Part shown: positions 1 to 30,772 of the stretch, one piece after another
Position numbering within the stretch: position 1 is the first letter of the stretch
Layout of the letters: each line of letters starts with the position of its first letter
DNA from: Bacillota bacterium
GTDB lineage: Bacteria > Bacillota > Desulfitobacteriia > Desulfitobacteriales > JAJXUE01
Reading direction: 5' to 3'
DNA: 36,614 bases
Assembly (NCBI GenBank): GCA_021783135.1
Contig: JAJXUE010000002.1
Coordinates: forward strand, 1-36,614
Position numbers and translations under genes: made by a program
Notes under the pieces: generated by a model
Databases searched by the model: none
What the model saw: the letters and a program-made list of their open reading frames with translations, nothing else
What the model was told of the DNA's origin: nothing

Positions 1-670
1 CCGCGCCCCAAGTAATGGTCGGCAGGTGACCGGTCACGATGCTTAAATTGGGCAAGGCCAGCCAAGCCGCTTGGTTAATGGCGTCAAAATTAACTTGCCC
101 TTGGGCCACGGCCACAATGTAGCCCCCAACCGTACCCAACAAAATCGGAATAATCTTCAAAAATCCTTTGGCGAAGATGCTAAACGCAATCACTATGCCA
201 GCCGTAATAAATGCAGTTATTAATCCTTTTTCCGCTTGTTGGATGGCAACAGGAGTTAAACTTAACCCGATAATCATCACCACCGGCCCCACGACCACGG
301 GCGGCAGCACCTTGGGAATCCAATTTAGGCCTGCGACGGCAATAATGCCAAAAACTACCGCATAGACAATCCCTGCCACCATCATGCCGGTCATAGCTCC
401 TTGTACTCCATACGCTTTGGACGCGGCAATGATTGGCGCGATAAAGGCAAACGAAGAACCCAAGTAAGCCGGTACTTTCCCCTGCGTTACCAGATGGAAA
501 ATTAAGGTGCCTAAGCCAGAGCAAAACAAGGTGACGGATGGATCAAGCCCGGTCAACAGCGGCACTAAAATTGTAGCGCCAAACATGGCAAATACGTGCT
601 GAAACGACAAAGGAATCGCTTTACTGAGCGGAGGCACTTGTTCAATATCATAAATCTTCTTGAACTCCAT
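1..670 (-). CDS. uraA: UraA-type nucleobase permease (NCS2/NAT family), 3' end beyond window
   Basis: About 223 N-terminal residues are visible; the rest lies beyond base 1. Reading inward from 670, the protein has the UraA-type N-terminus PLSFQHVFAMFGATILVPLL, then GKVPAYLGSSFAFIAP and several hydrophobic helices, closely following the uracil/proton symporter UraA. The ATG at 668-670 has an AAGGAGG eight bases upstream. The protein would import uracil, xanthine or a related base across the cytoplasmic membrane; substrate residues in helices 8 and 10 are outside the window, so uracil versus purine cannot be decided. It is the last gene of a same-strand run with a xanthine dehydrogenase-like enzyme and carbamoyltransferase genes, which makes a purine or ureido compound a plausible cargo. 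Family assignment is firm, substrate is inference. Confidence 0.9.
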   Translation of the reverse strand, partial: MEFKKIYDIEQVPPLSKAIPLSFQHVFAMFGATILVPLLTGLDPSVTLFCSGLGTLIFHLVTQGKVPAYLGSSFAFIAPIIAASKAYGVQGAMTGMMVAGIVYAVVFGIIAVAGLNWIPKVLPPVVVGPVVMIIGLSLTPVAIQQAEKGLITAFITAGIVIAFSIFAKGFLKIIPILLGTVGGYIVAVAQGQVNFDAINQAAWLALPNLSIVTGHLPTITWGA

Positions 671-937: not shown

Positions 938-1279
938 TTAGTCAATCGCGTGAAAGATCAGCCCGAGATAATCTTGACCAATCCCTTCTTTGACCGTGCC
1001 GACTGTGGCTCTAAGCTTCATGCCGGCGGCGGGATGTTCCGTTTCTAACTGACCTGCAATGCACAAACCGTTGTTAAAGCGAGCAATACCAAAACTGATA
1101 AACGGTTTCATATACCCTTCCGGCAGGTTGTACACCCTGGTGTAGGTTACCAAGGTGGCTTCTTCGTCTAACGGGATCGGCTCGAATTCGCGTCCGCCGC
1201 ATTTAACACATACAAAGTGGGCGGGGTGATGGAGTTGACCGCAGTTGGTGCATTTGTACGCACTCATCTCGATGGGCAT
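938..1279 (-). CDS. DUF35 protein: Zn-ribbon plus OB-fold, partner of the thiolase-like protein
   Basis: A 113-residue protein. The N-terminal rubredoxin-like Zn ribbon has CTNC at about residues 10-13 and CVKC at 24-27; an OB-fold follows (LVTYTRVYNLPEGYMKPF, then GLCIAGQL). Proteins of this family dock on thiolase-superfamily enzymes: the archaeal thiolase/HMG-CoA synthase complex, the PhlACB acyltransferase and the steroid aldolase Ltp2. They position the CoA or acyl substrate and are not catalysts themselves. The ATG lies 2 bp after the stop of the thiolase-like gene, with GAGG seven bases upstream, so the two are co-translated and very probably form a complex. The family is certain, the substrate unknown. 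Confidence 0.88.
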   Translation of the reverse strand: MPIEMSAYKCTNCGQLHHPAHFVCVKCGGREFEPIPLDEEATLVTYTRVYNLPEGYMKPFISFGIARFNNGLCIAGQLETEHPAAGMKLRATVGTVKEGIGQDYLGLIFHAID

Positions 1280-1281
1280 AA

Positions 1282-2475
1282 CTATTCCTCTCCCTTGGTC
1301 AAAATTGTGGCCACGACATTATTGCCAAAGCCGCCAAAATTGACGGCTAAGCCGGTTTTAGCTCCCACCACCTGACGTCCGCCTGCTTCGCCGCGCAGTT
1401 GACGCGTCAACTCCACCAGCTGGGATACGCCGGTAGCTCCTAAGGGATGACCTTTGGCCTTAAGCCCACCGGAGGTATTAATGGGTATTTTGCCGCCGAT
1501 TTCCGTGGCACCGCTGCGCACTGCCAGATGGCCCTGTCCGCGCGGGAAAAAACCCACCTCCTCCGCTTCCACAATCTCCAGTATGGCAAACGCATCGTGC
1601 AGTTCAGCCACGTCCACATCCTCCGGTTGTAAGCCTGCCATCGCATAAGCCTTGGCCGCGGCCAAGCGGACTGCCAACAAATCTGTCGGTACGGCCCTTT
1701 CCGCCACAGCGTGGGTATCGGTGGCCTGCCCAATTCCGGCAATTTTTATCGGTTTGTGTTTAAAACGTGCCGCAATATCCAGCGCACACAGCACCAGCGC
1801 CGCAGACCCGTCTGATACTGGGCACACATCATACACATGGAGCGGTTCAGCCACGTAAGGATTAATAATCAAAGCGTCCTCGTCAGTGGTAATCGCCGCT
1901 AAGTCCGGTACGAGTTGAATATGCGCAACCGGGTTATGCATAGCATTAGCGTGGTTTTTCACGGCAACCCTGGCGAGGTCAGTTTCCGCAATGCCATACT
2001 TCTCCATGCACAATCGGGTAAACATGCCGGCCAAGGCCGGTAGCGTCAAGCCATAATTATACTCGGCCTCCGGGTGCAGCATCGTAGCTACGAAATCCGT
2101 TGCTTCCCAACCGCTTACGACGCGCATCATTTCACCGCCTACTACCAAAGCGACATCTGCCATTCCGCTGGCAATGGCCATAAAGGCCAGTTTAACTGCT
2201 GAGGCACCGGAGGCAGGACCGTTCTCCACCGTCTCCGCCATCGCAGGGCGCAAGTTTAAGCTGTCAACCAAGGCTGAGGCCACACCATGCTGGCGGTTAA
2301 TCATCCCAGCTCCCATACTAGCGACAATTACCTGATCCACCCCATGACCCTCGCCCGGTATGATGCCGGCGTCGTCAAGCGCCTCCACTGCCGCAAGGCT
2401 GAGCAGGTGCCCAAACGGGACCCCGGACTTGCCAAATTTGGTATGTCCGACGCCAACTATGCCTACTTCTCTCAT
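1282..2475 (-). CDS. Thiolase-superfamily protein lacking both catalytic cysteines
   Basis: 397 residues, normal thiolase length. The N-terminus MREVGIVGVGHTKFG is that of the archaeal/SCP-x thiolase group. Where true thiolases have VEAACASGG this protein has VENGPASGA, so the nucleophilic Cys is Pro87. Near the C-terminus, where thiolases carry the second Cys (GGSGATC-type), it reads GGFGNNVV. The CoA-site histidine in GLKAKGHPLGATG and the HDAF and NHAN elements remain. Claisen thiolysis should be impossible; the nearest precedent is Ltp2, a DUF35-bound retro-aldolase of this superfamily with a repurposed active site. The start was chosen at the ATG overlapping the upstream gene's stop (ATGA); an upstream extension of 32 residues lacks thiolase similarity. 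It is followed directly by its DUF35 partner. The fold is certain; the reaction (aldol or acyl transfer) is inference. Confidence 0.88.
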   Translation of the reverse strand: MREVGIVGVGHTKFGKSGVPFGHLLSLAAVEALDDAGIIPGEGHGVDQVIVASMGAGMINRQHGVASALVDSLNLRPAMAETVENGPASGASAVKLAFMAIASGMADVALVVGGEMMRVVSGWEATDFVATMLHPEAEYNYGLTLPALAGMFTRLCMEKYGIAETDLARVAVKNHANAMHNPVAHIQLVPDLAAITTDEDALIINPYVAEPLHVYDVCPVSDGSAALVLCALDIAARFKHKPIKIAGIGQATDTHAVAERAVPTDLLAVRLAAAKAYAMAGLQPEDVDVAELHDAFAILEIVEAEEVGFFPRGQGHLAVRSGATEIGGKIPINTSGGLKAKGHPLGATGVSQLVELTRQLRGEAGGRQVVGAKTGLAVNFGGFGNNVVATILTKGEE

Positions 2476-3146
2476 CGCCGCCACCCCGGCAGCTGGGCGT
2501 AGGTTTGGGGCAGAATCATTTGGCGGGCCGTTTGTAAGAGTTCGTCGGAAACAGGGCGACGCCCGCCGCATTTGGCTCCCTTATGCTTTTGCCATAATGC
2601 TTGGGTGAGCACATAGGTTGGCACACCGCCCAGTTCATGCCAGGTCTGCGGCCGTGCTTCCAACTCATACTCAATCATCCAACGTTTAAACCCATTGGGG
2701 CTCTCCGCGACAATCCAGACCTCCTGTTCCCCGAGAAAGTCTAAGTGGTATTCCATTTTGGCCGCAAAAAGCTGCGCACCGATACGCAAGCCCTGCCGAA
2801 TGGCCATAGTGTGATAGGACATGCCTACATCTGCATTAACTTCACGCCCGTTAACAATTCCAACAATTTCGCCGTCAATCGTGCCAACCAAGCAATACTC
2901 GTCTTTCACGCGAAAGCGATACCACCCCAAGAGTTCGGCGTAGAGTCGCGCGGCGACAATGTCGTAAAAGTCCTTGGCAACCCCAATCAGGGGACGCACA
3001 GCCTCCAATAAAACGGGAACATCTTCGCGCACGGCCTGGTGTACGACGAGTTTTTGCCCGTTGGCCATGGTTATGTACTTGGCAGGATATGGCGGCTTTT
3101 CTCGCTCGGCGGGCCGCAGCGATTGTTCAAGTTTATCGATTTGCAT
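2472..3146 (-). CDS. GNAT-like acyltransferase, unknown substrate
   Basis: A soluble protein of 224 residues. The central part (about 40-190) has the order of GNAT elements: an opening strand/helix (VHQAVREDVPVLLEAVRPLIG), the strand pair CLVGTIDGEIVGIVNGRE, a region GLRIGAQLFAAKMEY in the acetyl-CoA pyrophosphate-loop position, and a terminal strand WIVAESPNGFKRWM. The loop does not match the Q/RxxGxG/A consensus perfectly, so assignment is moderate. The ATG at 3146 has AAGGAGG eight bases upstream; a TTG six codons earlier lies within that RBS and is rejected. Its stop overlaps the thiolase-like start by 4 bp, so GNAT, thiolase-fold and DUF35 proteins form one translationally coupled unit. 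Confidence 0.6.
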   Translation of the reverse strand: MQIDKLEQSLRPAEREKPPYPAKYITMANGQKLVVHQAVREDVPVLLEAVRPLIGVAKDFYDIVAARLYAELLGWYRFRVKDEYCLVGTIDGEIVGIVNGREVNADVGMSYHTMAIRQGLRIGAQLFAAKMEYHLDFLGEQEVWIVAESPNGFKRWMIEYELEARPQTWHELGGVPTYVLTQALWQKHKGAKCGGRRPVSDELLQTARQMILPQTYAQLPGWRR

Positions 3147-3197
3147 CAAGCAGACCTCCTTCAAGCTTCAGTTTGGCCGTGACACCAAACCTTAAAC

Positions 3198-3326: not shown

Positions 3327-4274
3327 TCAGCCGGGGAGAAGCAGCGTACCCCGTTCCCCCTGTAGCGCCGCCTGCAGGTTATTAAAGTCAGTGATGATGG
3401 CCTTCCCCCCGGTAGACGTGACAAATTCAACCGCAGCTTCGATTTTCGGACCCATGCTGCCGGGCGGGAATTGGCCCGTCGCCAAGTAGGCTTGAGCCAA
3501 GGGCACCGGGATATGGCCGAGCGCTCTTTGCGTGGGCAGGTGATAGTCCACATATACCTGCGGTACTCCGGTCAAAATCACCAAGACTTCCGCCCCGATG
3601 GATCTGGCCAAACTAACAGCGGCATAATCCTTATCGACCACCGCCTCAATTCCCACATAGCCGTCCCTGCCCTTGACCACAGGGATACCGCCTCCCCCTG
3701 CAGCCACCACGATTACTCCCCCAGCAACCAGTTGTTTAATTACCCCGCTTTCCAAAATGGCACACGGACGGGGCGACGGGACTACCCGACGGTAGCCGCG
3801 TCCACTGTCCTCTTGTAGCACGTAATTCTTGTTAGTCATTAACTCCCGGGCTTCGGCCTCAGTATAAAAAGGCCCGATGGGCTTACTGGGTTTGGCGAAG
3901 GCTGCGTCGCGCGGGTCCACCTCCACCCGAGTAACAAGCGCGGCAACTTCACGGGTAATTGCTTTGTGCCGCAACAGGTTTTGCAGAGTTTGCGCAATCG
4001 CAAAACCCAGCGAACCTTGCGTATTGGCGACACACACGTCGAGCGGCATCGGCGGCAACAGATGTTTAGTGAGTTCGTTTTTGAGCAAAATGTTCCCGAC
4101 CTGCGGTCCATTCCCGTGCGTAATGACTATTTTGTACCCAGCTTGGGCTAACTCCACCACGTCGCGGCAGCTGTGCTCAATGTTGGCCAACTGCTCGGCA
4201 AAAGTGCCCTTTTGGTGCTCAGTGGTAATGGCGTTACCGCCAAAGGCAATAACAACCGTCTTATTTTGCGTCAT
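3327..4274 (-). CDS. arcC: Carbamate kinase
   Basis: 315 residues, the normal carbamate kinase length. Amino-acid-kinase fold motifs are in order: VVIAFGGNAI at the N-terminus, ITHGNGPQVGN, VVPSPRPCAI, AGGGGIPVV, VDKDYAAVSLA and GSMGPKIEAA. It converts carbamoyl phosphate plus ADP to ATP plus carbamate (ammonia and CO2). The ATG at 4272-4274 was chosen because the conserved sequence begins there; the gene overlaps the end of the cyclase-family gene by 14 bp. Behind allH, allF and allG its likely job is to harvest the carbamoyl phosphate from ureido-compound phosphorolysis, the role of AllK in the E. coli oxamate carbamoyltransferase pathway. No arginine deiminase or ornithine carbamoyltransferase gene is nearby. 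Confidence 0.95.
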   Translation of the reverse strand: MTQNKTVVIAFGGNAITTEHQKGTFAEQLANIEHSCRDVVELAQAGYKIVITHGNGPQVGNILLKNELTKHLLPPMPLDVCVANTQGSLGFAIAQTLQNLLRHKAITREVAALVTRVEVDPRDAAFAKPSKPIGPFYTEAEARELMTNKNYVLQEDSGRGYRRVVPSPRPCAILESGVIKQLVAGGVIVVAAGGGGIPVVKGRDGYVGIEAVVDKDYAAVSLARSIGAEVLVILTGVPQVYVDYHLPTQRALGHIPVPLAQAYLATGQFPPGSMGPKIEAAVEFVTSTGGKAIITDFNNLQAALQGERGTLLLPG

Positions 4275-5046
4275 AGGCGACAATACGGCAAATCGAGGAT
4301 TCGCCGCCCTCAAACCGCCAGGGATAGCAACCGATAATCAGCCGCTTATTGAGAACTTTGTCAATTTCCCCGCCTAAATTTTCCGCGTGCACAATATCAT
4401 ACGGAAACAAATCCACGTGCATCAGTTGGTAGTGATCAGGCGGAAACACCACATCAATTGATTTGCCGAATTTAGCTTGGAAATACTGCTCACATTCGGC
4501 GGCCTGCCTCGGTGCCCATTCCCGGATTTTGGTGTTCATAGGGTGGTCGGCGGAACCGCAATCAACCCCAATCCATTTCAACTCCAGCTTACGGCACCAC
4601 GCCGCAAACTCGCGGGTCGGCCCGGGGTGTTTGACCATGTAGCGTACTTCATCCGCTTCCGGTTGATCCCAGGCATAGCGGTGATAGCCAGTATTGATCA
4701 CCAGAATATCGCCTTTTTTTACTTCCACACGGTCGGTAATGTCTTTCGCGGTGTAGATGCCATAGTCTTCTGCGAGGTCACTAAGATCGACCACCACCCC
4801 TTCCCCAATCAATTCATTTAGCGGAATGGCCGCGATGTCTCGCCCATGGGTGCAAAAATGGAGTGAACCGTCTAGATGCGTACCCACGTGATTGGAAGTT
4901 GTAATTACTTGCCCATTGGCACCATTGGAGCTTAGCCGCTTAAAGAACTTGATCTGCAGCGGCTCGTAAGTCGGCCAAGGTGGGGTAAGGTGACTGAGTT
5001 TTTGGGTCAGGTCGTACATTTGCACATTTGGCCAGTGCTTAAGCAT
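4261..5046 (-). CDS. Cyclase-family metal-dependent amidohydrolase (kynurenine formamidase/isatin hydrolase fold)
   Basis: 261 residues. The family metal motif HxGTHxDxxxH is present as HVGTHLDGSLH (residues 53-63), with a further region VKKGDILVINTGYHRY and the C-terminal PDHYQLMHVDLFPYDIVHAENL typical of these Mn/Zn hydrolases. Members open cyclic or acyl amides (isatin hydrolase, kynurenine formamidase). The ATG has GGGAG about ten bases upstream. It lies between allG and the carbamate kinase, overlapping the latter, so it probably hydrolyses a ring or amide intermediate made from the molybdenum hydroxylase product. The exact substrate cannot be read from the sequence. Confidence 0.85.
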   Translation of the reverse strand: MLKHWPNVQMYDLTQKLSHLTPPWPTYEPLQIKFFKRLSSNGANGQVITTSNHVGTHLDGSLHFCTHGRDIAAIPLNELIGEGVVVDLSDLAEDYGIYTAKDITDRVEVKKGDILVINTGYHRYAWDQPEADEVRYMVKHPGPTREFAAWCRKLELKWIGVDCGSADHPMNTKIREWAPRQAAECEQYFQAKFGKSIDVVFPPDHYQLMHVDLFPYDIVHAENLGGEIDKVLNKRLIIGCYPWRFEGGESSICRIVAYDAK

Positions 5047-5143: not shown

Positions 5144-6547
5144 CTATTGTGCTAACTCCAGCAAGGCTTGCGTAAAACAGGCCCAAGGCGGTTTGACCAA
5201 GCCGGCCCCGACTTGGCCGATGCCGGGTTTTTTATGCGCAATCCCAGTATTGATGTTCGGCAAAATGCCCGTCTCCACCACTTTGCGCACATCAATGCCG
5301 GTAGGAGTGCCGCGGAAGTTTAACGCCGGAATGGTGCACAAAGCGTTCTCACCATAGGTGATCTGGTACATCAAGTTGCTGTACTCCAAGGCATCGGCTG
5401 CACTACCGCCGACGAACTGGACAATAGCCGGGGCCGCAGCCATGGCAAAGCCGCCAATACCTGCCGTTTCGGTAATGGCACTATCCCCAATATCCAAATT
5501 AGCGTCTTTGGCGCTGTAACCCGGGAAGTATAATCCCTCTACCGGCAGCGCCGGAGCAGTAAACCAATGCTCCCCTGTACCGCACACCCTGATGCCAAAA
5601 TCTGTCCCGTTGCGGCTCATTGCCGTTACCAAGGTCGAATACGGCACATGGCCTGCCGCATCTAAGACGGCCTTACAAGCCGGCATCGAAAGGTTGAGAA
5701 AGAAATGGTCATTACCATTAATAAAGTTTAAGCAGCGGCTGATCACTCCCCGGGCTGCTTCAGTCTGGAGCAGGAGTGGCGCCAAAACCCTTAGCAACAG
5801 CGAGGTTCCGGCTTTGTTGCGATTATGCCCTTCGTCTCCCATGTGCAGCATTTGAGCCAAGATACTGCGTAAATCAATCCCTCCTGACAACTGCACTGCC
5901 GCGTGCAGGGTCGGAGCCAGTTCATGTTCCAGCCATTTGAGCCGTTCAAGCACCTCCGCGCTGTATGCTCCATAACGCAGCACTTTGCCCAAGCCTTCGT
6001 TGAGCGTGCAGTAGGCATAATTACCGTGCGTGCGGTTATGCACGATAAACACCGGCATGGAGGGCGAAACCACCCCAGCCATCGGCCCAACGCTGTTATG
6101 CTCATGACAGGGCGCAAACTCAATCGCACCGGAAGCAGCGAGTTGCTCGGCTTCGGCTGCCCCGTCCACCCAGCCCTCATACAAGATGGCCCCGATAACG
6201 GCACCGCGCAGCGGTCCGCTCATGCGTTCCCAGGTAATTGGCGGTCCGGCATGCAGTAACATGCGCTCGCCCATACCCGGAATCACTGCCAAAGCTGTTC
6301 CCACTCCCTCCAAAAAGGGCTGGGCCTCGCTCATTCTCTGCCAGGCCAACTTATTACCCGCTTCGACTTGTTCCTGCACCGCGCTAAGCCGGTCAAGCGC
6401 GTGCAACAATTCGCTATCCCCGCCCGCCGGTGGCGTCCATTCCACCTCAACAACCCGGCAGCCCTGGCGACGCAAATCTGCCGCAAACGGCGGAATACCG
6501 ACGTTAATAACCGCAAGCTCTTGTTGAAACAGCTCGTTTATGCCCAT
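5144..6547 (-). CDS. allG: AllG-type subunit of oxamate carbamoyltransferase (DUF1116, YlbE family)
   Basis: 467 residues, full length for DUF1116. Recognisable segments are FAPCHEHNSVGPMAGVVSPS, HMGDEGHNRNKAGTSLL, FFLNLSMPACKA and PTGIDVRKVVETGILPNINT. In E. coli AllF, AllG and AllH together catalyse oxalurate plus phosphate to oxamate plus carbamoyl phosphate. The ATG at 6545-6547 overlaps the stop of the FdrA gene by one base (TAATG), a strong coupling sign. With allH upstream and carbamate kinase downstream the complete set is present. Family assignment is firm; whether oxalurate is the true substrate is inferred by homology. Confidence 0.9.
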   Translation of the reverse strand: MGINELFQQELAVINVGIPPFAADLRRQGCRVVEVEWTPPAGGDSELLHALDRLSAVQEQVEAGNKLAWQRMSEAQPFLEGVGTALAVIPGMGERMLLHAGPPITWERMSGPLRGAVIGAILYEGWVDGAAEAEQLAASGAIEFAPCHEHNSVGPMAGVVSPSMPVFIVHNRTHGNYAYCTLNEGLGKVLRYGAYSAEVLERLKWLEHELAPTLHAAVQLSGGIDLRSILAQMLHMGDEGHNRNKAGTSLLLRVLAPLLLQTEAARGVISRCLNFINGNDHFFLNLSMPACKAVLDAAGHVPYSTLVTAMSRNGTDFGIRVCGTGEHWFTAPALPVEGLYFPGYSAKDANLDIGDSAITETAGIGGFAMAAAPAIVQFVGGSAADALEYSNLMYQITYGENALCTIPALNFRGTPTGIDVRKVVETGILPNINTGIAHKKPGIGQVGAGLVKPPWACFTQALLELAQ

Positions 6548-8136
6548 TACCTCGCACCCCCCTGTAACGCCTTGGCTACTTGCGCCGCAAACTGGGCGGC
6601 CGCCACATTGGACGCAAATACGGCTGCACCAGCTTGCTGCAGGGTATTTACCTGGCGAGCATAATCCTGGGGATCACGCTGCGTACCGCAGACATACGCC
6701 ACAAAAATAATTTTACGTCCGTCATTAAGAGCTATTTCACGCGCCTTGCGGATTGCCGGGGCCAACTCTTCCGCCGGGTCCGGGTGCGAGCCATAACCTA
6801 GCACCACATCCAGCAGGATTACAGCCGTCTGCGGATCACGCGCCTCCTGCACAATGCGGGCACGGCGCAAGGTGCAGTCAAGCATCGGGTGCGCCCGCCC
6901 CTGCGTGAAATAATCATCACCCAAATCCAACACAGTATGCTCCCTGCTCTTACCCGGGTCGCCTAACTTGGCCTCAGGTGCCAAAGGGGTATTCGAGTAG
7001 ATAAGGCCCAATTGCTCGCCCAGAATCAGCATGGCCTCATCACCTAAAGTCCCGCCGGAAAACAGTCCCCGCACATATTTCGGTCCATAGCTTAACCCTT
7101 TGATGCTCTTTAGCGCTAAACCATCTTCCCTACTCTCACCCTCCAGCGCACCGCCGGCAGCCTCGACAGCCATTTGCGCCGCTGCCAGTAAAGTTTTAGC
7201 GCGCCGCACTGTTGCGTGGCTGGGAGCCTCCACATCATCCCCAAGCACACAGTACACTGCGGGCTTACCGCACCGCTCTAAGGCCGTCAGGACCTTTGCC
7301 GCCACCTCCGGCGCAGCCGGTTTGGAGATGACCACAAGCACAGTTGTATCAGGATCATTGCGCAAAGCCTCGATCCCGTCTAAGAGCATGATTCCGCCTA
7401 CCTCACGCGACAGATCGCGCCCGCCTGTGCCAAGCGCCTGCGATATCCCTTGGCCTAAGCGGTCGATTTGTACGCTCACTTCCTGAATTCCGGTCCCGGA
7501 GGCTCCGACAATGCCAATGCTGCCACGCCTTACTGCATTAGCAAAAGCTAAGGGTACACCGTTGATAATAGCCGTACCACAGTCCGGCCCCATCAGCAGC
7601 AAGCCCTGTTTGTGAGCGTACTGCTTAAGCGCCACCTCATCGGCCAAGGCCACATTGTCGCTAAAAAGCAGCACATGTAAGCCCTTAGCTAGAGCCTGCC
7701 TGGCCTCACGCGCGGCAAATTGCCCCGGTACTGAGATTAGAGCCAGGTTGGCAACATTTTCTGCCAGCGCACGACCAAGTGACTTAGGTAGGGCCTGACC
7801 TGTCACCTGACCGGCGGCTTGACCGGCGACTTGACCGTTCAAGGGTTGCTTTACGCCCCCCCGAAGCATCGTTTCCGCTTGTTCCAAGGCATTTTCCACA
7901 CTCAGCACATCACTACCCCGCACTGCCAGCAGCAAATCGTTACTGCCTGCCTGCACATTCGACGCAAATTCCAAGCTTTCCAGCACCGCCAGGTTGAGCG
8001 GAGTAGCCATGGCGACTAAAGCCGCCTCCACGCCGCGCATACTTTGCAGCCGCTGTGATACGGCCAACAAAGTAACAGAGTCATAATAAGTATTGAACTT
8101 CACCAAGATTCTTTGGTTTTGCTGGTTTGATTCCAT
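6547..8136 (-). CDS. fdrA: FdrA/AllF, acyl-CoA synthetase-like subunit of oxamate carbamoyltransferase
   Basis: 529 residues. The protein resembles succinyl-CoA synthetase alpha plus beta-like domains: MGPDCGTAIINGVPLAF (about 182-198), then GIVGASGTGIQEVSVQIDRL with a glycine-rich phosphate loop near 211-217, and LDVVLGYGSHPDPAEEL toward the C-terminus. These are hallmarks of FdrA, the large partner of AllG and AllH. Two in-frame ATGs exist; the inner one at 8136 is preferred because GGGAG lies ten bases upstream, whereas it would be one base from the ATG at 8145. Its 5' end overlaps allH by 56 bp. A linker at residues 101-115 is a GQ-rich repeat encoded by four tandem 12-bp units, not expected in the family. 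Confidence 0.9.
   Translation of the reverse strand: MESNQQNQRILVKFNTYYDSVTLLAVSQRLQSMRGVEAALVAMATPLNLAVLESLEFASNVQAGSNDLLLAVRGSDVLSVENALEQAETMLRGGVKQPLNGQVAGQAAGQVTGQALPKSLGRALAENVANLALISVPGQFAAREARQALAKGLHVLLFSDNVALADEVALKQYAHKQGLLLMGPDCGTAIINGVPLAFANAVRRGSIGIVGASGTGIQEVSVQIDRLGQGISQALGTGGRDLSREVGGIMLLDGIEALRNDPDTTVLVVISKPAAPEVAAKVLTALERCGKPAVYCVLGDDVEAPSHATVRRAKTLLAAAQMAVEAAGGALEGESREDGLALKSIKGLSYGPKYVRGLFSGGTLGDEAMLILGEQLGLIYSNTPLAPEAKLGDPGKSREHTVLDLGDDYFTQGRAHPMLDCTLRRARIVQEARDPQTAVILLDVVLGYGSHPDPAEELAPAIRKAREIALNDGRKIIFVAYVCGTQRDPQDYARQVNTLQQAGAAVFASNVAAAQFAAQVAKALQGGAR
7794..7841. repeat. 12-bp tandem repeat x4 inside fdrA
   Basis: Four consecutive 12-base units (plus strand CCTGACCTGTCA, CCTGACCGGCGG, CTTGACCGGCGA, CTTGACCGTTCA) encode a Gly-Gln-x-x periodicity in the FdrA linker. 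The unit is a multiple of three, so slippage would change linker length without a frameshift. Confidence 0.9.
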
Positions 8137-9049
8137 TCCCGTCATGCTCCCTTATACGAATTTCGCAGCCCAGGATAATGCCGGCCAAAAGGTAACGGCC
8201 CGAACTCGCCCCTACTTGCAGCACACTCAAAGCCGTGGCAAAGACATCCGGACTGTTGCCGTAGATAGCATCGACCATCGCCACAAGGCGTGACGTACCT
8301 TCACCCCGCACAGCATACCAGAGCATTGTCTGGCTGATAGCATTAGTGCGCGCGCTGAGCTTATTCACAAGAGCTGCCAGATCAGTCTCAAACGCTGCAT
8401 CACAACCATCGTCGTTGACACAGCCGGCGTTTGCGTTACCTTCACTGCTACCTTCACCGCGGACATATGCGAGCAACACTCCTGCCACAAAATCGTCCCC
8501 ACTCGGCGTTAAGCCGGGACCGACTCCAACTAAGGCGTTTAGTGAGGCTGCCACCAAATCTAGCCGTTGCGTCAGTAGACCCAGTTGCAGGTGCTGTGCT
8601 TGCTCCCCATGCTGCGTAGCTAAGCCCGGAAACTGCAATTCCGCCCAGCTATGCACCCGTTGCCAGCAAAGCTCAACCTGCCGCGGCTGCCACTTACTTA
8701 AGGCGAGTGGGCTTGCACCTATATCACTTAAAGAATCTTCATGCACACGATAATTAAACACACGATAATTAAGCTTACGGCAATCAATCACAACCCGGCC
8801 AACACGCAAAATTTTGCCGTTAAACAAGACAATCCAGCCCGGCTCAAGATACTCCGCAAAGTCAATATGCTCCACCCACAGGGCGTTTGGTCCCATTGTA
8901 GCTGCGTTATTCACTAAAGCTAACAACGGTCGAGCGGAGGTCGCCTGCAAATTACACACGCTGCGAAACACAGAGTGTACCTTAAATTGCTCACACCCCA
9001 TACGCGCGGCAAAGTCCCGTCCCCATGCTTTACCCTCAAACGTCAGCAT
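8081..9049 (-). CDS. allH: AllH-type subunit of oxamate carbamoyltransferase (DUF2877, YlbF family)
   Basis: 322 residues. The family signature GVGPGLTPSGDDFVAG is at about 175-190, and LAALVNKLSARTNAISQTML matches the helix that follows it in DUF2877 proteins. AllH is the third component, with FdrA and AllG, of the carbamoyltransferase that phosphorolyses oxalurate. The ATG at 9047-9049 is chosen: AGGAGG is eight bases upstream, while the GTG at 9058 is almost inside the RBS. It starts 20 bp after the stop of the molybdenum hydroxylase large subunit and its 3' end overlaps fdrA, tying the hydroxylase and the carbamoyltransferase into one transcript. A short A/T-rich duplication around 8748-8772 encodes NYRVFNYRV. 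Confidence 0.9.
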   Translation of the reverse strand: MLTFEGKAWGRDFAARMGCEQFKVHSVFRSVCNLQATSARPLLALVNNAATMGPNALWVEHIDFAEYLEPGWIVLFNGKILRVGRVVIDCRKLNYRVFNYRVHEDSLSDIGASPLALSKWQPRQVELCWQRVHSWAELQFPGLATQHGEQAQHLQLGLLTQRLDLVAASLNALVGVGPGLTPSGDDFVAGVLLAYVRGEGSSEGNANAGCVNDDGCDAAFETDLAALVNKLSARTNAISQTMLWYAVRGEGTSRLVAMVDAIYGNSPDVFATALSVLQVGASSGRYLLAGIILGCEIRIREHDGNGIKPAKPKNLGEVQYLL

Positions 9050-9069
9050 CAGCACCACCTCCTGCGCAG

Positions 9070-11424
9070 CTAAGGTCTAGCTAACTTTGCCACTGCCAGG
9101 GCAATTTTTTCCGGTGTCAGAGGTAACTCATAAAAGTTGATGCCCAACGCATCGTACAGCGCATTGCCAATAACAGATGGAACGGATATCATCGGGTGTT
9201 CCCCCACGCCCCGCGCCCCAAACGGCCCGTCCGCCTGCGGGTTTTCCAGCAGGATTGGCACGATTTCCCGCGGAGTATCCTGAGCCGTAGGAATTTTATT
9301 GTCGGTAAACGAAGGGTTTAACAATTTACCGTCCGGACTATATTTGTACTCCTCACACAAGGCCGAGCCTAGCCCCTGCATAACCCCCCCGATTACTTGC
9401 CCTTTACACAGCTTGGGATTAAGCACTTGACCGACATCAAAGGCAGAGGCAATTTTGAGGACAGTGACTTCACCTGTTTCTATATCAACCTCAATTTCAG
9501 CCCCATGCGCCCCGTAAGTCCAATCCAGTGCCGGCAAGCCTTGTCCGTTATCATCCAAATTAGTCAGCCCCGGCGCCAGATACGTACCCCGTCCGATAAT
9601 CGGTCCGCCGATTGCATTGCCGTTTCGGTAGGTGTAGCCCATGGCCAAGGCCTGATAAGTGACAAACTGTTCCGGATGCTGGACATGGTAAATCCGTTCA
9701 TTGGCATGGGCCAGTTCGTCCACCGGGATCCGCAGCACCTGCGCCGCTGTGGCCTTTAACTGGCGCAGCACATCCTGCGCACAGCGAATTACCGCATTGC
9801 CGCCCATAAACGAATACTTCGAGGCCACAGTTTGCCAGTCATAGGGGCTATGATCGGTGTCCACTTCCCCACTCACTTTAATTTTGTCGAGTGGCATAGC
9901 CAAGATCTCAGCGGCAATTTGCGCCATCACGGTGTAAGCACCTTGCCCCATATCGGTGGCACCCAGCAGCATAATGACAGAGCCGTCCTCATTAAGTTGC
10001 ATAATCGCGCCGGTTGCAGTATTGGCCGGCATGGCGGGTGCTTTATGCAATACCGCCAGTCCCTTACCGCGCGCCTTACCACGCGCAATTCCAGCCGCGC
10101 GTTCAGCCGCAGACCGATAACCGCACCAGCCGATTTCACTTGCCACTGCACTTAAGCACTGATCAACCCGCCCGGAATTAGCGTTAATTCGCTCGCCGCT
10201 GATAGTGAGCGAACCCTCGCGCAGCAAATTTTGCTGCCGCAATTCATACGGGTCAATTTGCAAGCGTTGCGCTAATAGGTCCATATGGCGCTCGATCACC
10301 CAATGTGTCTCGAGATGCCCAAAGCCGCGATAGGCAGTACCGAAGACTTTATTGGTATAAAGGGTGCGCGAGTGCAGTTCAATATTGTCCAGCGCATACG
10401 GTCCTGCCCCGGCATAACCGGCAGCCCGGCCCACATTAACGGAGTAATCTGCATAAGCGCCACCGTCCCAGTCGAAATACAGCTGCATAGCCGTAATTTT
10501 GCCACCCTTAGTAATACCGGTTTTAACGCGTCCCCGCAGTCCCTCCCGGCACGGCAATTGGTTATATTCTTCTTCTCGACTGGCTTTAACCCGCACCGGA
10601 ATGCCGTTACAAGCACGTGAGAGCGCTAAGGCCAAAGGCTCCAGATGAATCCCGGCCTTCCCGCCAAACCCGCCGCCGATAAAGGGTACTACCACCTTAA
10701 TATCAGCACGCGCCAAGCCAAAAGCCTTAGCCAGCAAATTACGCACGGAAAAGGGTGATTGGGCCGAGGTCCAAATGGTCACGCGGTTCGAGGCAGGATG
10801 CGCTTGGGCAATTGATACGTGGGTTTCCAGCGGTGCATGCGCGACCTGGGGCAGACTAAGTTCATCCTCAAACACAAAATCCGCTGCGGCAAATCCCTGC
10901 TGCACATCACCGCGCCGGGTTTGGTGCCAGCTGGCAATGTTGGAGTCAGGCTGCGGGAAAAAAGCACCTTTGATATATTCCAGTTCATTAATATCCTCAT
11001 GTACGAGAGTTTGACCCGCCAGTGCTGCATCTACAGATAACACCGCCGGCAGCTCACTGTAGGTGACCTTGATTAAGCCTACCGCCCGCTCTGCGGTGAC
11101 CTCGTCCACTGCTGCTACAGCTGCAACAGGCTCACCTTGATAGCGCACCTTATGTCGCGCCAGAATGGGCTTATCTACCATGTATAACCCTAACAAGTAG
11201 GGCAAATCTGCCCCCGTGAGTATTGCTTTTACACCGGGCAAGGCTTTAGCTGCGGTAACATCGATAGCTACTATTAAGGCATGCGCGTGCGGTGAATGCA
11301 GAATTTTGGTATGCAGCATCCCGGGCAGGGAAAAATCATGCACATAAACGGCCTGACCGGTCACCTTCTGCCAGGCTTCGCTGCGTGTTTGAGCTGTTCC
11401 GACAACAGTGTAATGGTCACTCAC
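9070..11424 (-). CDS. xdhA: Xanthine dehydrogenase-family molybdenum-binding subunit
   Basis: 784 residues. Molybdopterin-binding landmarks are RYQGEPVAAVAAV (94-106), the cofactor loop FIGGGFGGKAG (248-258), AYRGFG (substrate-side Arg), a GATDMGQG loop, and near the C-terminus GARGVGE with the catalytic base Glu742. It hydroxylates an N-heterocycle with water and passes electrons through the 2Fe-2S and FAD partners. A GTG at 11422-11424 is the start: GGAGG lies seven to eight bases upstream, and the conserved N-terminus DHYTVVGTAQTRSEAWQKVT begins there; a 30-residue upstream extension would lie within the iron-sulfur gene. The two genes overlap by 8 bp. The neighbours suggest xanthine or hypoxanthine, but other hydroxylases of this fold (nicotinate, isoquinoline) cannot be excluded. 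Confidence 0.9.
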   Translation of the reverse strand: MSDHYTVVGTAQTRSEAWQKVTGQAVYVHDFSLPGMLHTKILHSPHAHALIVAIDVTAAKALPGVKAILTGADLPYLLGLYMVDKPILARHKVRYQGEPVAAVAAVDEVTAERAVGLIKVTYSELPAVLSVDAALAGQTLVHEDINELEYIKGAFFPQPDSNIASWHQTRRGDVQQGFAAADFVFEDELSLPQVAHAPLETHVSIAQAHPASNRVTIWTSAQSPFSVRNLLAKAFGLARADIKVVVPFIGGGFGGKAGIHLEPLALALSRACNGIPVRVKASREEEYNQLPCREGLRGRVKTGITKGGKITAMQLYFDWDGGAYADYSVNVGRAAGYAGAGPYALDNIELHSRTLYTNKVFGTAYRGFGHLETHWVIERHMDLLAQRLQIDPYELRQQNLLREGSLTISGERINANSGRVDQCLSAVASEIGWCGYRSAAERAAGIARGKARGKGLAVLHKAPAMPANTATGAIMQLNEDGSVIMLLGATDMGQGAYTVMAQIAAEILAMPLDKIKVSGEVDTDHSPYDWQTVASKYSFMGGNAVIRCAQDVLRQLKATAAQVLRIPVDELAHANERIYHVQHPEQFVTYQALAMGYTYRNGNAIGGPIIGRGTYLAPGLTNLDDNGQGLPALDWTYGAHGAEIEVDIETGEVTVLKIASAFDVGQVLNPKLCKGQVIGGVMQGLGSALCEEYKYSPDGKLLNPSFTDNKIPTAQDTPREIVPILLENPQADGPFGARGVGEHPMISVPSVIGNALYDALGINFYELPLTPEKIALAVAKLARP

Positions 11425-11905
11425 TTGCCGTCTCCTCCCTTTCCCGCTTAGCTGCCGCCTGAATGGCACTGACAATGGGTAAATACCCAGTACAACGGCA
11501 CAGGTTGCCCGCAATCGCTACTTTAATTTCCTCCTCACCGGGGTCTGAAGTGCGATCCAACAACGCCCGCGCCGACATTAGCATGCCGGGAGTGCAAAAA
11601 CCGCACTGCAAGGCGTCATGCTGTACAAATTCCTCCTGCAAAATAGCAAGCTTGCCGCCTTGAGCCAAGCCTTCTACCGTTTTCACCTCACACCCATCCG
11701 CTTCGACCGCGAGCATCAGGCAAGAATTTACCGCCCGCCCGTTGACCATAACCGTGCAAGCGCCGCATTCTCCCTCACCGCACCCTTCCTTCGCCCCAAA
11801 CAGACTGAGTTCACCGCGGAGAAATTCCAACAAAGTCTGGCCTGAGTCCACCTCAGCACTAATTGCTGCCCCATTTATACCGCAGGTAATCACGTGTTTA
11901 GCCAT
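11417..11905 (-). CDS. xdhC: Molybdenum hydroxylase 2Fe-2S subunit
   Basis: 162 residues, the usual size. The plant-type ferredoxin cluster has Cys42, Cys47, Cys50 and Cys62 (GCGEGECGACTV, then NSC). The second, helical 2Fe-2S cluster has CGFC at 101-104 and CRC at 136-138 (GNLCRCTGY). It relays electrons from the Mo centre to FAD. The ATG at 11903-11905 has AGGAGG eight bases upstream. It overlaps the FAD subunit gene by 8 bp and the Mo subunit gene by 8 bp, the tight FAD-FeS-Mo order typical of these operons. All eight cluster cysteines are present. Confidence 0.96.
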   Translation of the reverse strand: MAKHVITCGINGAAISAEVDSGQTLLEFLRGELSLFGAKEGCGEGECGACTVMVNGRAVNSCLMLAVEADGCEVKTVEGLAQGGKLAILQEEFVQHDALQCGFCTPGMLMSARALLDRTSDPGEEEIKVAIAGNLCRCTGYLPIVSAIQAAAKREREETASE

Positions 11906-12833
11906 CCTGTTTTCCTCCTGCCGTGACCAATGAACTTACCGCCCGCCGAACGAACACCGCCGCCATATGCCGCCGATATTCCGCTGTAGCACGCACATCG
12001 CTAATAGGGTGGATATACAGATTAATCGCTTGCGCAGCAAGCTCTGCTAAGGCAGGGGTAAACGGCTGGGCATTAAGCAGCTCCTCCAGAGCGAACAAGC
12101 GCAAAGGTGTAGGAGCGGCCGCAGCTACGGCAAAGCGAAACTGCTTAGCCGCATTAAGCCTCGCCGCCAGACCGATAATGCTTAAATCATGCCCCTTAAG
12201 CCTGCCTTGTTTTAAGTACAAACCGCCAACATCCGTCACGTTCGTCATACCCGTCGCACTCGTCGCACCTGTCGCACCCGTCGCACCCGTCGCACCTGTC
12301 GCATCCGTCGTATCGGGCAGAAATACGCCCTGTAACAATTCATCACGCTCTAAAACATGCTGCTTAACCCCGGTAAAGAAATCCTGCAATGGGATGCGGC
12401 GGCTACCACGTTGCGATACCACCTCTAGCACACCCTCATATACCAAAAGCGGGGGAACCAAATCCGCGGCCGGTGAAGCATTACAGATATTGCCGCCCAC
12501 GGTCGCCCGATTGCGCAGTTGATAGGAAGCTAACACCCGCGCCGCAGCCGCAAGCGCTGGAAAGTATTGTCGCACCACATCCGCCTCGGCCAGCCTATTG
12601 ACACAAACCGCCGCACCAATAGATAACCCCTGTCCCGGAGTGTAAGTTAAGGCAGTAAGTTCCTTGAGACCCTTGATGTCGATAACCAAAGCCGGCTGTA
12701 CCTGTTTACGCCGCAGTGCCACCAGCAAATCGGTCCCGCCGGAGAGAATTTTCACCTCCCGTTCCTTCTCTGCCAGGCACTGCACAGCATGCGTTAGAGT
12801 TATCGGTTTTGCATACTCAAAATTTGTTAACAA
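11898..12833 (-). CDS. xdhB: Molybdenum hydroxylase FAD subunit
   Basis: 311 residues. FAD motifs are ILSGGTDLL (29-37) and RNRATVGGNICNASPAADL (107-125), followed by a CO dehydrogenase-type C-terminal domain. It receives electrons from the 2Fe-2S subunit and passes them to NAD+ or another acceptor. The start is a TTG at 12831-12833 with GAGGTG seven bases upstream; the N-terminus LTNFEYAKPITLTHAV is right for the family. Residues 177-202 are a Gly-Ala-Thr repeat encoded by 9-bp tandem units, inserted where homologues go directly from the FAD domain to the GxYxKQGRR strand. It is the first gene of the xdh-all run. Confidence 0.93.
   Translation of the reverse strand: MLTNFEYAKPITLTHAVQCLAEKEREVKILSGGTDLLVALRRKQVQPALVIDIKGLKELTALTYTPGQGLSIGAAVCVNRLAEADVVRQYFPALAAAARVLASYQLRNRATVGGNICNASPAADLVPPLLVYEGVLEVVSQRGSRRIPLQDFFTGVKQHVLERDELLQGVFLPDTTDATGATGATGATGATSATGMTNVTDVGGLYLKQGRLKGHDLSIIGLAARLNAAKQFRFAVAAAAPTPLRLFALEELLNAQPFTPALAELAAQAINLYIHPISDVRATAEYRRHMAAVFVRRAVSSLVTAGGKQDG
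12234..12314. repeat. 9-bp tandem repeat, nine units, inside xdhB
   Basis: Nine consecutive 9-base units based on CGTCGCACC (plus strand) encode Gly-Ala-Thr on the minus strand. The central five units are nearly perfect; the outer units are decayed. The unit is a multiple of three, so gains or losses stay in frame. Confidence 0.92.
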
Positions 12834-22458: not shown

Positions 22459-23685
22459 CTATTTCCCTACCAAATCCCGTACATGCTGTGCCACGCTTTC
22501 CGGGTCCTTCTGGACCCGCGCCACACCACTATCCATAGCCGCTTTAGCTACAGCAGCTGCAACGGTCGGAGCCAACCGGGGGTCAAAGGCCTTAGGCATG
22601 ACGTAATCGGCCGTCAATTCCGCATCCGACACTAAGCTCGCGATGGCATAAGCCGCAGCGACCTTCATTGCTTCATTGATCGTAGTCGCCTTCACATCTA
22701 AGGCGCCGCGGAAGATACCAGGGAAGGCTGCAACATTATTGACTTGATTGGGGAAATCGGAACGCCCGGTTCCTACGACAGCTGCACCGGCGGCCTTAGC
22801 GGCATCCGGCATAATTTCCGGTACCGGGTTAGCCATGGCAAAGATGATCGGGTCTTTGGCCATCGATTTAACCATCTCCGGCGTCACTGCGTCAGCGACC
22901 GACACACCAATAAATACATCCGCCCCTTGGAGCGCCTCCGCCAAATCGCCTTTTACCATGCCGCGGTTGGTCTTTAGCGCAATTTCATCCTTATATTTAT
23001 TCATGCCGCGCGGACGCCCCTCATAAATCGCGCCCTTGCTGTCACACATAATCACATTTTCTACACCCATACTCATCAACAGCTTGATGATGGCTGTGCC
23101 CGCCGCACCTGCGCCGCTGGTGACAACTTTGATGTTGTGAATGTCTTTTTTAATCAGCTTGAGAGCGTTAATCAAGCCGGCCATGGTGACTATAGCCGTA
23201 CCATGTTGGTCATCGTGGAACACCGGGATTTGCATAACTTCTTTTAACCGTTCCTCCACTTCGAAGCAATCCGGCGCACCAATATCTTCTAAGTTAATCC
23301 CGCCGAAGGTAGGCTCAAGCAACCTAGTAGCGGCAACTATTTCGTCCACACTCTTGGTGTTCAGACAAATCGGGAAGGCATCCACGCCGGCAAAGGCTTT
23401 AAACAAGACCGCTTTGCCTTCCATTACCGGCATTGCGGCATAGGCACCGATATCACCTAAACCCAGCACAGCAGTTCCATTCGAGACTACCGCCACCATG
23501 TTGCCGCGGTTGGTATAGACATCCACCAGGTCTTGCTCACGGGCAATTTCCTTGCACGGCTCCGCTACTCCCGGGGAATAGGCCAAGCTTAAATCGTGCG
23601 CATCGCGCACAGGCACTTTACTTTCTACAACTATTTTACCTTGATGCTCACGATGTAATTTGAGCGCTTCCTCACGCAGAGACAT
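22459..23685 (-). CDS. Malic enzyme (NAD(P)-dependent oxaloacetate-decarboxylating malate dehydrogenase)
   Basis: 408 residues, the short bacterial form. Motifs are LSLAYSPGVAEPC (substrate), NRGNMVAVVSNGTAVLGLGD, HDDQHGTAIV, and the Rossmann GAGAAGTAIIKLL. It oxidatively decarboxylates malate to pyruvate and CO2. The ATG at 23683-23685 is chosen since conserved sequence begins there; AAAGGA lies twelve bases upstream, a little far. A GTG four codons earlier is possible. It follows sdhB by 129 bp on the same strand, so a path from succinate through fumarate and malate to pyruvate (or the reverse) would be co-encoded apart from fumarase. In the spacer AAGTTTCG occurs twice. Confidence 0.96.
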   Translation of the reverse strand: MSLREEALKLHREHQGKIVVESKVPVRDAHDLSLAYSPGVAEPCKEIAREQDLVDVYTNRGNMVAVVSNGTAVLGLGDIGAYAAMPVMEGKAVLFKAFAGVDAFPICLNTKSVDEIVAATRLLEPTFGGINLEDIGAPDCFEVEERLKEVMQIPVFHDDQHGTAIVTMAGLINALKLIKKDIHNIKVVTSGAGAAGTAIIKLLMSMGVENVIMCDSKGAIYEGRPRGMNKYKDEIALKTNRGMVKGDLAEALQGADVFIGVSVADAVTPEMVKSMAKDPIIFAMANPVPEIMPDAAKAAGAAVVGTGRSDFPNQVNNVAAFPGIFRGALDVKATTINEAMKVAAAYAIASLVSDAELTADYVMPKAFDPRLAPTVAAAVAKAAMDSGVARVQKDPESVAQHVRDLVGK

Positions 23686-23813
23686 AAAAAACACCAATCC
23701 TTTCTTTATAACCGAAACTTTTAAACGAAACTTTTACCCGATTTTTATTGCCGAATCATATAACGTTGACACCATGCAATTGTGCAAGCTTCCTAAATAT
23801 GCCTATGCATGCT

Positions 23814-24560
23814 CTACTTCCTTAGCCACCTGCCCACGGCAAATTTATTAACTTCACGGTTCAAGTCGGCAATTGAAGTCGTCAGCGGAATAGCCTTAGG
23901 GCAAGCCTGCACACAGTTTTGCGCATTACCGCAATCACTGATGCCGCCCTTATCCATTAGCGCTGCCAACCGCTCATGCTTGTTCATGTTGCCGGTAGGG
24001 TGAGTGTTGAACAAGCGTGCCTGCGATATGGCCGCAGGACCGATGAAATTAGCGCGGGAATTAAATTGCGGGCACGCTTCAGCGCAGCAACCGCACGTCA
24101 TACATTTGGAAAGTTCATAGGCCCATTGACGTGTTTCCTCCGCCATACGGGGCCCCGGGCCTAAATCATAGGTGCCGTCAATCGGAATCCAGGCCTTAAC
24201 TTTTTTGAGATTATCAAACATCACTTGGCGATCCACCATTAAATCGCGCACCAACGGAAACTTAGTCAACGGTTCCAGCACAATAGGCTGCTGCAGTTGA
24301 TCAATTAACGCAGTGCAGGCTTGGCGGGCGGTACCGTTAATGTTCATCGAACAGGCGCCGCACACTTCTTCTAAGCAGTTACATTCCCATACTACCGGGG
24401 TGGTCTTGGTCCCCTCAGCAGTAACCGGATTGCGTTGAATTTCCATTAACACGGAGATAACATTCATCTTCGGTAGGTAAGGGACTTTGAAGTTTTCCCA
24501 GCGCACGGGCTGGTTCGGTCCATCTTGACGCTTGACGCGTAAATTAATGAATTCAGCCAT
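23814..24560 (-). CDS. sdhB: Succinate dehydrogenase/fumarate reductase iron-sulfur subunit
   Basis: 248 residues. The 2Fe-2S site is CNCLEEVCGACSM plus a Cys eleven residues later; the 4Fe-4S site is CMTCGCCAEACP; the 3Fe-4S site is CGNAQNCVQACP followed by a proline-rich turn. All cluster ligands are present. It carries electrons between the flavin subunit and the diheme cytochrome b. The ATG overlaps the sdhA stop by one base (TAATG). Direction of the reaction (succinate oxidation or fumarate reduction) cannot be told from sequence; in an anaerobe either is possible. Confidence 0.97.
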   Translation of the reverse strand: MAEFINLRVKRQDGPNQPVRWENFKVPYLPKMNVISVLMEIQRNPVTAEGTKTTPVVWECNCLEEVCGACSMNINGTARQACTALIDQLQQPIVLEPLTKFPLVRDLMVDRQVMFDNLKKVKAWIPIDGTYDLGPGPRMAEETRQWAYELSKCMTCGCCAEACPQFNSRANFIGPAAISQARLFNTHPTGNMNKHERLAALMDKGGISDCGNAQNCVQACPKAIPLTTSIADLNREVNKFAVGRWLRK

Positions 24561-26311: not shown

Positions 26312-26348
26312 CTTTTCCCTTCCTTTCCGACTGGATTAAGCTACTGGA

Positions 26349-26957
26349 TTAAGCTACCAAATGGGCAAGACTTGTCATGCCAACCACTGCGAGCACGATA
26401 AAGACAGCACTGCAGAAGTAAGTGGCGATTTTTTGCGAGCGCGGACCGATGGTAATGCCCCACGTAATGAAGAAAGCCCATAGACCATTGGCGAAGTGAA
26501 AGATGGCGGAAAGCACGCCAACTACATAGAAGATAAGTCCAAAAGGCGTTTTGACGAAAGCTACTAAGGATTGCACGGTGTCCACCGGACTCAAACCCGA
26601 GAACCTTAGGGCAAACACATGATAAGCGATAAAGATCAAGGTAAGTAGACCGGTAAGCCGTTGCAGCACGTAAAACCAGTTGCGGTAATACTTGTAGCGC
26701 AAGGTATTTACCCCGCTGCCATAAACCACAATCAAGCCATAAATGGCGTGAAACAAAATGGGCAAAAAAATGACGATAAGCTCAACAATAAAGATGCCCG
26801 GGGTATCACGCATGGTTTTAATTACAGCGGCATACCGTGCCGGATTGGTAGTGGCGATAATGTTTAAGGTCAGGTGGAAGAGCAAGAAAATACCGATGGG
26901 GATGAGGCCTAGCAAGGAATGCACCCTGCGCACGAGGAAATGATTGGAATTGCTCAT
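26349..26957 (-). CDS. sdhC: Succinate dehydrogenase diheme cytochrome b558 subunit
   Basis: 202 residues, the same length as Bacillus subtilis SdhC. Five membrane helices. The heme-region histidines are His13 (VHSLLG), His28 (LLFHLT), His70 (LFHAIYG), His113 (AYHVFAL) and His154 (IFHFANG), essentially the Bacillus spacing, so two b hemes and menaquinone as quinone partner are expected. The ATG has AAGGAG nine bases upstream. It is the first structural gene, 33 bp after the regulator stop, with no terminator between, so the regulator is probably on the same transcript. Confidence 0.95.
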   Translation of the reverse strand: MSNSNHFLVRRVHSLLGLIPIGIFLLFHLTLNIIATTNPARYAAVIKTMRDTPGIFIVELIVIFLPILFHAIYGLIVVYGSGVNTLRYKYYRNWFYVLQRLTGLLTLIFIAYHVFALRFSGLSPVDTVQSLVAFVKTPFGLIFYVVGVLSAIFHFANGLWAFFITWGITIGPRSQKIATYFCSAVFIVLAVVGMTSLAHLVA

Positions 26958-30648: not shown

Positions 30649-30650
30649 TC

Positions 30651-30772
30651 GCAAAACCCCCGTAAGGTCAATTTATCTCCATCGTTCAGCCAATTTCTTC
30701 TCTATACTGAATAATTCAACTTCTGGAGATAGATTTCCTTCTATTTAGAGTAACTTAAACAGGGGTTTTTGC
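30651..30772 (-). repeat. Long interrupted inverted repeat upstream of the transposase start
   Basis: Outer arms are GCAAAACCCCCGT (30651-30663) and ACAGGGGTTTTTGC (30759-30772), pairing with one bulge and one wobble. Inner arms are TATCTCC (30674-30680) and GGAGATA (30725-30731). In a minus-strand transcript entering from outside, the outer stem would bury the transposase RBS and abut its start codon. Confidence 0.75.

Follow-up and report, generated by a model that had tools for sequence, protein, structure and literature searches.

A cysteine-less thiolase-fold protein encoded with DUF35 and GNAT-fold partners: a candidate route from malonamate to acetyl-CoA in a putative anaerobic pyrimidine operon

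Loss of the nucleophilic cysteine has precedents in the thiolase superfamily, and in KS-Q domains a glutamine occupies the position at which the protein described here carries a proline. KS-Q loading domains such as that of GfsA are decarboxylases that bring two histidines to the substrate carboxylate (PMC12267109); they act on malonyl-ACP within polyketide synthases, whereas the present protein is predicted to use a free CoA substrate alongside DUF35 and GNAT partners. The SCP2-type thiolase-like protein TbSLP (5AB7), likewise cysteine-less, decarboxylates malonyl-CoA weakly and slowly (PMC12329534) but carries a YDCF motif and shows ~24% identity. The nearest PDB sequence match of the present protein is the Sulfolobus thiolase-like protein ST0096 (4YZO), also lacking the nucleophilic cysteine (a serine is aligned). 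To our knowledge, TbSLP has no DUF35/GNAT operon. DUF35-bound relatives without the cysteine are found among aldolases (Ltp2–ChsH2 and Sal–Shy; 6OK1, 9MYR), which use a catalytic tyrosine in YDxF, are accompanied by a MaoC-type hydratase and belong to a steroid context, whereas here the residue is histidine, no such hydratase is encoded and the context is read as pyrimidine catabolism. The closest fold is that of the archaeal thiolases (6et9, TM 0.91; furiosus enzyme, 7YVY), which share the DUF35 partner, the histidine pair of HDxF and GHP, and CPxSDG; they retain the nucleophilic cysteine (ACASG) where proline stands here, and their third component is HMG-CoA synthase rather than a GNAT-fold protein. 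On the pathway side, the AllFGH system of E. coli converts the acylurea oxalurate to oxamate and carbamoyl phosphate (PMC11326118), gains ATP from the latter and leaves oxamate as a dead end; homologues of AllF, AllG, AllH and carbamate kinase recur in the present operon, whose proposed amide product, malonamate, would instead be recovered as acetyl-CoA.

The window, by which we mean the whole 36,614-nucleotide stretch of Bacillota DNA analysed, carries these genes in a minus-strand array that runs from the Mo-hydroxylase through AllH, AllF, AllG, cyclase, carbamate kinase, GNAT-fold protein, thiolase-fold protein and DUF35 to the permease:

1–670, minus strand: NCS2 permease, truncated at the window edge, clustering with the permeases of related operons
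938–1279, minus strand: DUF35 protein, 113 aa (PF12172), with a Zn-ribbon (zf-ChsH2) and a C-terminal region
1282–2475, minus strand: thiolase-fold protein, 397 aa, with Pro87 at the nucleophile site and HDAF for HDCF; putative malonyl-CoA decarboxylase subunit
2472–3164, minus strand: GNAT-fold protein, 230 aa (AF2/Foldseek), third member of the unit; proposed malonamate:CoA acyltransfer step
3327–4313, minus strand: carbamate kinase (TIGR00746, 372 bits, cut-off 358); the real start is probably downstream of 4313
4261–5046, minus strand: cyclase-family ring-opening hydrolase (PF04199); proposed barbiturase-like step
5144–6547, minus strand: AllG (DUF1116) homologue of oxamate carbamoyltransferase (PF06545, E 1.5e-99)
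6547–8145, minus strand: AllF/FdrA homologue (NF004760, 483 bits, cut-off 433)
8081–9058, minus strand: AllH (DUF2877) homologue (PF11392, E 1.8e-18)
9070–11514, minus strand: Mo-hydroxylase large subunit of the XDH family (NF043082, 522 bits against a cut-off of 780, and under every XDH cut-off); proposed uracil hydroxylation
11417–11905, minus strand: Mo-hydroxylase 2Fe-2S subunit
11898–12833, minus strand: Mo-hydroxylase FAD subunit

The thiolase-fold protein contains both the Thiolase_N and the Thiolase_C domain (Pfam matches PF22691/PF00108), and its AF2 model (pLDDT 88) finds the archaeal acetoacetyl-CoA thiolase 6et9 as its top PDB match in Foldseek. A previous sequence-only reading of the locus had noted proline 87 in place of the catalytic cysteine, and this is borne out by tblastn alignments, in which the proline of VENGPASGA aligns with the cysteine of active homologues (ENACASG, EGACASG). 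All 80 retrieved homologues, at 59–83% identity, carry NGPASG together with HDAF, GHPxGxxG and NFGGFGNN, so Pro87 is neither a sequencing error nor a singleton. These Pro-type proteins span Bacillota, Coriobacteriales, Spirochaetota, Bipolaricaulota, Acidobacteriota, Gemmatimonadota, Eisenbacteria and others, and in a maximum-likelihood tree they form a single clade among Cys-type sequences (support 100/100). Across an alignment of 37 sequences reaching down to ~60% identity, no substitution occurs at Pro87, His293, Asn333, His343, Asn379, Asn385 or Asn386, nor anywhere in the NFGGFGNN loop. Judged from these alignments and the tree, the loss of the cysteine is real and old.

The sequence-only reading was also right that a second catalytic cysteine is missing, but it placed the loss at the C-terminal GGFGNN site. 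That site does not discriminate, since active DUF35 thiolases of the Cys type read GGSG or GGDG and have no cysteine there either; those of the same phylum read ENACASG, HDCF, GHPIGATG and GGSG. By this comparison, the second catalytic cysteine of the DUF35-type subfamily is that of HDCF, which is Ala295 in the window protein (HDAF). The histidine of HPLGATG, in turn, is intact as claimed (His343).

A cysteine elsewhere filling the nucleophile pocket had been named beforehand as a finding that would refute the proposal. The sole invariant cysteine of the Pro-type proteins, C218 (CPVSDG), was considered as a relocated nucleophile and rejected as unlikely, since homologues that keep an intact nucleophile carry cysteine or serine at that site.

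A second cysteine-less DUF35-thiolase is encoded elsewhere in the window's own genome (L117:7803-9554), with ESGGATGG and HDAF and therefore glycine at the nucleophile position; its neighbours are DUF35-like, acyl-CoA dehydrogenase-like and acyl-CoA synthetase-like genes, and in the tree it forms a lineage apart from the Pro clade.

The coupling of the thiolase-fold protein to DUF35 likewise held up: the genes lie 2 bp apart, the DUF35 gene adjoins the thiolase gene in most loci, with a tblastn match in 78 of the 80, and the four Zn-ribbon cysteines are present in the window (C10, C13, C24, C27). The CxxC...CxxC pattern occurs in 41 of 51 DUF35 homologues, and the other 10 space the second cysteine pair as CQNPDC. 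However, collecting the Pro-type homologues and comparing their neighbours, as had been suggested, revealed that the presumed pair is incomplete; the third partner, together with the pyrimidine pathway and the gene replacements described below, had been missed. The gene of this GNAT-fold protein overlaps the start of the thiolase gene by 4 bp, and 75 of the 80 loci encode the protein next to the thiolase, so that, by neighbourhood, GNAT, cysteine-less thiolase and DUF35 form a conserved three-gene unit. A survey of Acidobacteriota found the trio in 1 of 199 genomes.

The GNAT-fold protein scores above the cut-off of no sequence family and has no PDB relative by sequence at E<=1; PF00583 gives sub-threshold matches (E 0.03–0.06) in 3 of 22 members. 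Its AF2 model (pLDDT 89, pTM 0.87) nevertheless matches GNATs in Foldseek (PatZ, PA3270; E to 1.7e-7, probability 1.00), with TM values of only ~0.45–0.6, and Ser116 and His118 are invariant. Because GNAT and thiolase folds both bind acyl-CoA, the trio looks like a CoA enzyme.

The gene content agrees with the small-molecule catabolic setting that had been anticipated. Homologues of AllF, AllG and AllH are all present together, and related operons repeat them with the cyclase, Mo-hydroxylase, carbamate kinase and permease, usually accompanied by a PucR-type regulator. The HxGTHxDG metal motif is present in the aligned cyclase orthologues that were inspected. For the NCS2 permeases of this operon family, uracil permease is the best or near-best model, and two of them (L006, 606 bits; L010, 643 bits) exceed the equivalog cut-off of 477; that of L017 is an exception, of xanthine type. 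In addition, five loci (L051, L054, L067, L123 and L130) have cytosine-deaminase-like genes in the vicinity of those for the cyclase or AllF. Since the AllFGH homologues share the operon with carbamate kinase, a Mo-hydroxylase, a PF04199 cyclase and a permease of uracil type, we read it as one for oxidative (barbiturate) pyrimidine catabolism. The barbiturate route of uracil oxidation yields ureidomalonate, the next homologue of oxalurate, and by analogy to oxamate we propose that the AllFGH homologues would form malonamate from it, whose carbon would then have to be salvaged by some further step. Searches of the open-access literature (AllFGH with barbiturate or thiolase, barbiturase/malonamate, DUF1116 clusters) found no published description of this operon.

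Several neighbouring genes were recorded alongside. Clostridium-type loci (L009, L010, L012 and L022, e.g. L022:17925-18914) end the operon with a 3-hydroxyacyl-CoA-dehydrogenase-like gene whose top model is FHMPC dehydrogenase. Downstream in the window, a malic-enzyme-like gene with a fumarate reductase/succinate dehydrogenase-like set (22459-26957) and a transposase-like ORF (29014-30654) were judged by eye to be unrelated.

Insight into the roles of the trio comes from operons in which its genes are replaced. When 398 Bacillota genomes were searched with the cyclase alone, 32 held a close homologue: 10 have the GNAT-fold gene and 16 others encode a nitrilase-type amidase in the operon, no genome combining the two; 6 show neither in the stretch read. 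This exclusion has P = 1.2e-4 under independence, a value that ignores relatedness in a phylogenetically clustered sample. The nearest models of the amidase are formamidase and nitrilase; seven amidase loci also encode a class III CoA-transferase (best model CoA:oxalate CoA-transferase), and two a biotin-dependent (methyl)malonyl-CoA decarboxylase set. All of these replacing genes are absent from the 80 thiolase-retrieved loci. Two loci, L133 and L136, encode a GNAT that has diverged to 39% identity and keeps 42 positions unchanged when seven sequences are aligned. Its neighbours are decarboxylase genes (MmdA-like, biotin-carrier and sodium-pump), and the Pro-type thiolase is absent from the operon and from the rest of the genome. 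Counted over whole genomes, MmdA-like proteins are present in all 7 genomes of the replacement types that were tested and in 3 of the 11 that carry the trio, with one additional weak match; the window's own genome is among these three, encoding such a protein elsewhere. Judged from these mutually exclusive replacements, the GNAT-fold protein appears to substitute for amidase plus CoA-transferase, and thiolase/DUF35 and biotin decarboxylase appear interchangeable. Separately, a variant that lacks both amidase and GNAT is found in L139, L141 and L134, with a peptidase-like gene and a sodium-pump decarboxylase beta gene next to the cyclase or AllG; L139 and L141 have two CT-like genes (~30%) nearby.

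From the observed gene content, Pro/His conservation, neighbourhood and exclusive replacements we infer the substrates, reactions, division of labour and physical complex of the following scheme. Uracil (or thymine) would be imported by the permease and hydroxylated to a barbiturate by the Mo-hydroxylase; the PF04199 cyclase would open the ring to ureidomalonate, which the AllFGH homologues would cleave phosphorolytically to carbamoyl phosphate and malonamate, the former yielding ATP through carbamate kinase. The GNAT subunit would then exchange the amide of malonamate for CoA, giving malonyl-CoA and NH3, and malonyl-CoA would sit on the DUF35-held thiolase fold where an active thiolase keeps its acyl-CoA. 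An acyl-enzyme is impossible there because the nucleophilic cysteine is missing; His293 and His343, retained beside Pro87 as two active-site histidines beside a replaced nucleophile in the manner of KS-Q, would instead promote decarboxylation to acetyl-CoA and CO2. The amide-to-thioester exchange is, by estimate, uphill unless decarboxylation pulls it.

We put the probability that the trio is a three-component CoA enzyme closing an anaerobic oxidative pyrimidine pathway, with the GNAT converting malonamate to malonyl-CoA and the thiolase acting as decarboxylase, at roughly one half. The fuller proposal, that the trio combines amide-to-CoA exchange with thiolase-fold decarboxylation to make acetyl-CoA straight from malonamate and so completes an undescribed, ATP-yielding anaerobic uracil pathway across many phyla, is more tentative and falls somewhat short of even odds. 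The decarboxylation of a malonyl thioester by the thiolase-fold protein is suggested only by the replacement of decarboxylase genes; with an MmdA-like protein in three trio genomes, it need not be the sole decarboxylase. Furthermore, AllFGH is characterised for oxalurate and oxamate only, and some trios (L055, L059) adjoin glutamate dehydrogenase outside a pyrimidine operon.

Among other readings of the trio, the same conversion of malonamate to acetyl-CoA could proceed with roles reversed or shared, the GNAT decarboxylating and thiolase–DUF35 acylating CoA, or all three forming an inseparable enzyme. GNAT folds can indeed be malonyl-CoA decarboxylases (MCD, CurA) with a His-Ser/Thr dyad (PMC3701320), for which the invariant Ser116 and His118 would be candidates, but L133 and L136 would then hold two decarboxylases, GNAT and biotin set, with no acylation step and no cysteine-less thiolase, and we consider this arrangement rather unlikely. 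MadA was examined as a precedent for the GNAT chemistry and set aside, for although it has a GNAT domain, its hot-dog domain decarboxylates (PMC8666670). It is less probable that the thiolase fold is catalytically dead and that, with DUF35, it provides the GNAT with a scaffold or channel that binds CoA. The loss of both cysteines, the bridging that DUF35 proteins provide between archaeal thiolase and HMG-CoA synthase within their complex (PMC12329534) and the 4-bp gene overlap, compatible with a complex, would suit such a scaffold. Against it, His293, His343, Asn333 and the NFGGFGNN loop stay invariant in all 37 homologues, and the divergent GNAT exists without the thiolase just as thiolase–DUF35 exists without the GNAT in four genomes (L033, L037, L041 and L062, which yielded neither a GNAT nor a close homologue of the cyclase).

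The sequence-only reading favoured an aldol-type or other non-Claisen carbon–carbon reaction on the model of Ltp2. Decarboxylation, now the best reading, keeps to the broader part of that proposal, but an aldolase or retro-aldolase like Ltp2 or Sal has become highly improbable. The suggested comparison with Ltp2 and PhlC does find a shared fold (6ok1, TM 0.82) as well as the DUF35 partner and missing cysteine; however, the catalytic tyrosine of YDHF/YDCY is His293 in 37 of 37 sequences, Ala295 stands at the site of Cys304 (Sal) or His296 (Ltp2) (PMC12329534), and the operon encodes neither a hydratase nor a beta-hydroxyacyl-CoA step. Equally remote is a C-acyltransferase or decarboxylative condensation like that of PhlABC or MucABC, in which, for example, a malonamate enolate would be acylated by GNAT-held acetyl-CoA. 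The DUF35-containing three-component layout and the presence of PhlC and MucABC among the structural matches speak for it, but the operon genes include no KAS/HMGCS-like partner subunit of the PhlABC type, the catalytic cysteine (compare the CsATase C88S mutant in the PDB) is missing too, and the replacing amidase, CoA-transferase and decarboxylase genes indicate breakdown. Scarcely more probable is a purine-derived ureide operon, in which AllFGH would form oxamate, as in E. coli (PMC11326118), and the trio oxalyl-CoA or a related C2 acyl-CoA. The CoA:oxalate model of the class III CoA-transferase, the XDH-like Mo-hydroxylase and the PucR regulator would fit, but uracil-type permeases and recurrent cytosine-deaminase-like genes point elsewhere, and the replacing decarboxylases are of the (methyl)malonyl-CoA type, superfluous for an oxalate route.

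Should the malonamate reading hold, malonyl-CoA decarboxylation would join the reactions of DUF35-bound thiolase folds, a GNAT-fold protein would gain an amide-to-thioester role, it would become clear what happens to the amide that AllFGH forms, which goes no further in E. coli, and acetogens, gut and termite bacteria and spirochaetes would recover ATP and acetyl-CoA from uracil anaerobically. Moreover, the three genomically distinct end modules of the pathway make the assignment directly testable.

The trio enzyme may also serve further pathways, given its glutamate dehydrogenase or nitrilase neighbours and the thiolase–DUF35 pairs free of GNAT and cyclase. Where the trio stands outside the uracil operon, its neighbour, close by or immediately adjacent, can be an archaeal-type glutamate dehydrogenase, upstream or nearby in L055, L063 and L065 and downstream in L059 and L066. 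This arrangement suggests an ammonia linkage or another substrate. In Coriobacteriales, the trios of L025:9313-14984 and L028:102-7171 adjoin a PucR-type regulator, a DUF485-like protein, an ActP-like symporter and a Nit6803-like nitrilase, so that a nitrile or amide acid possibly feeds the same enzyme.
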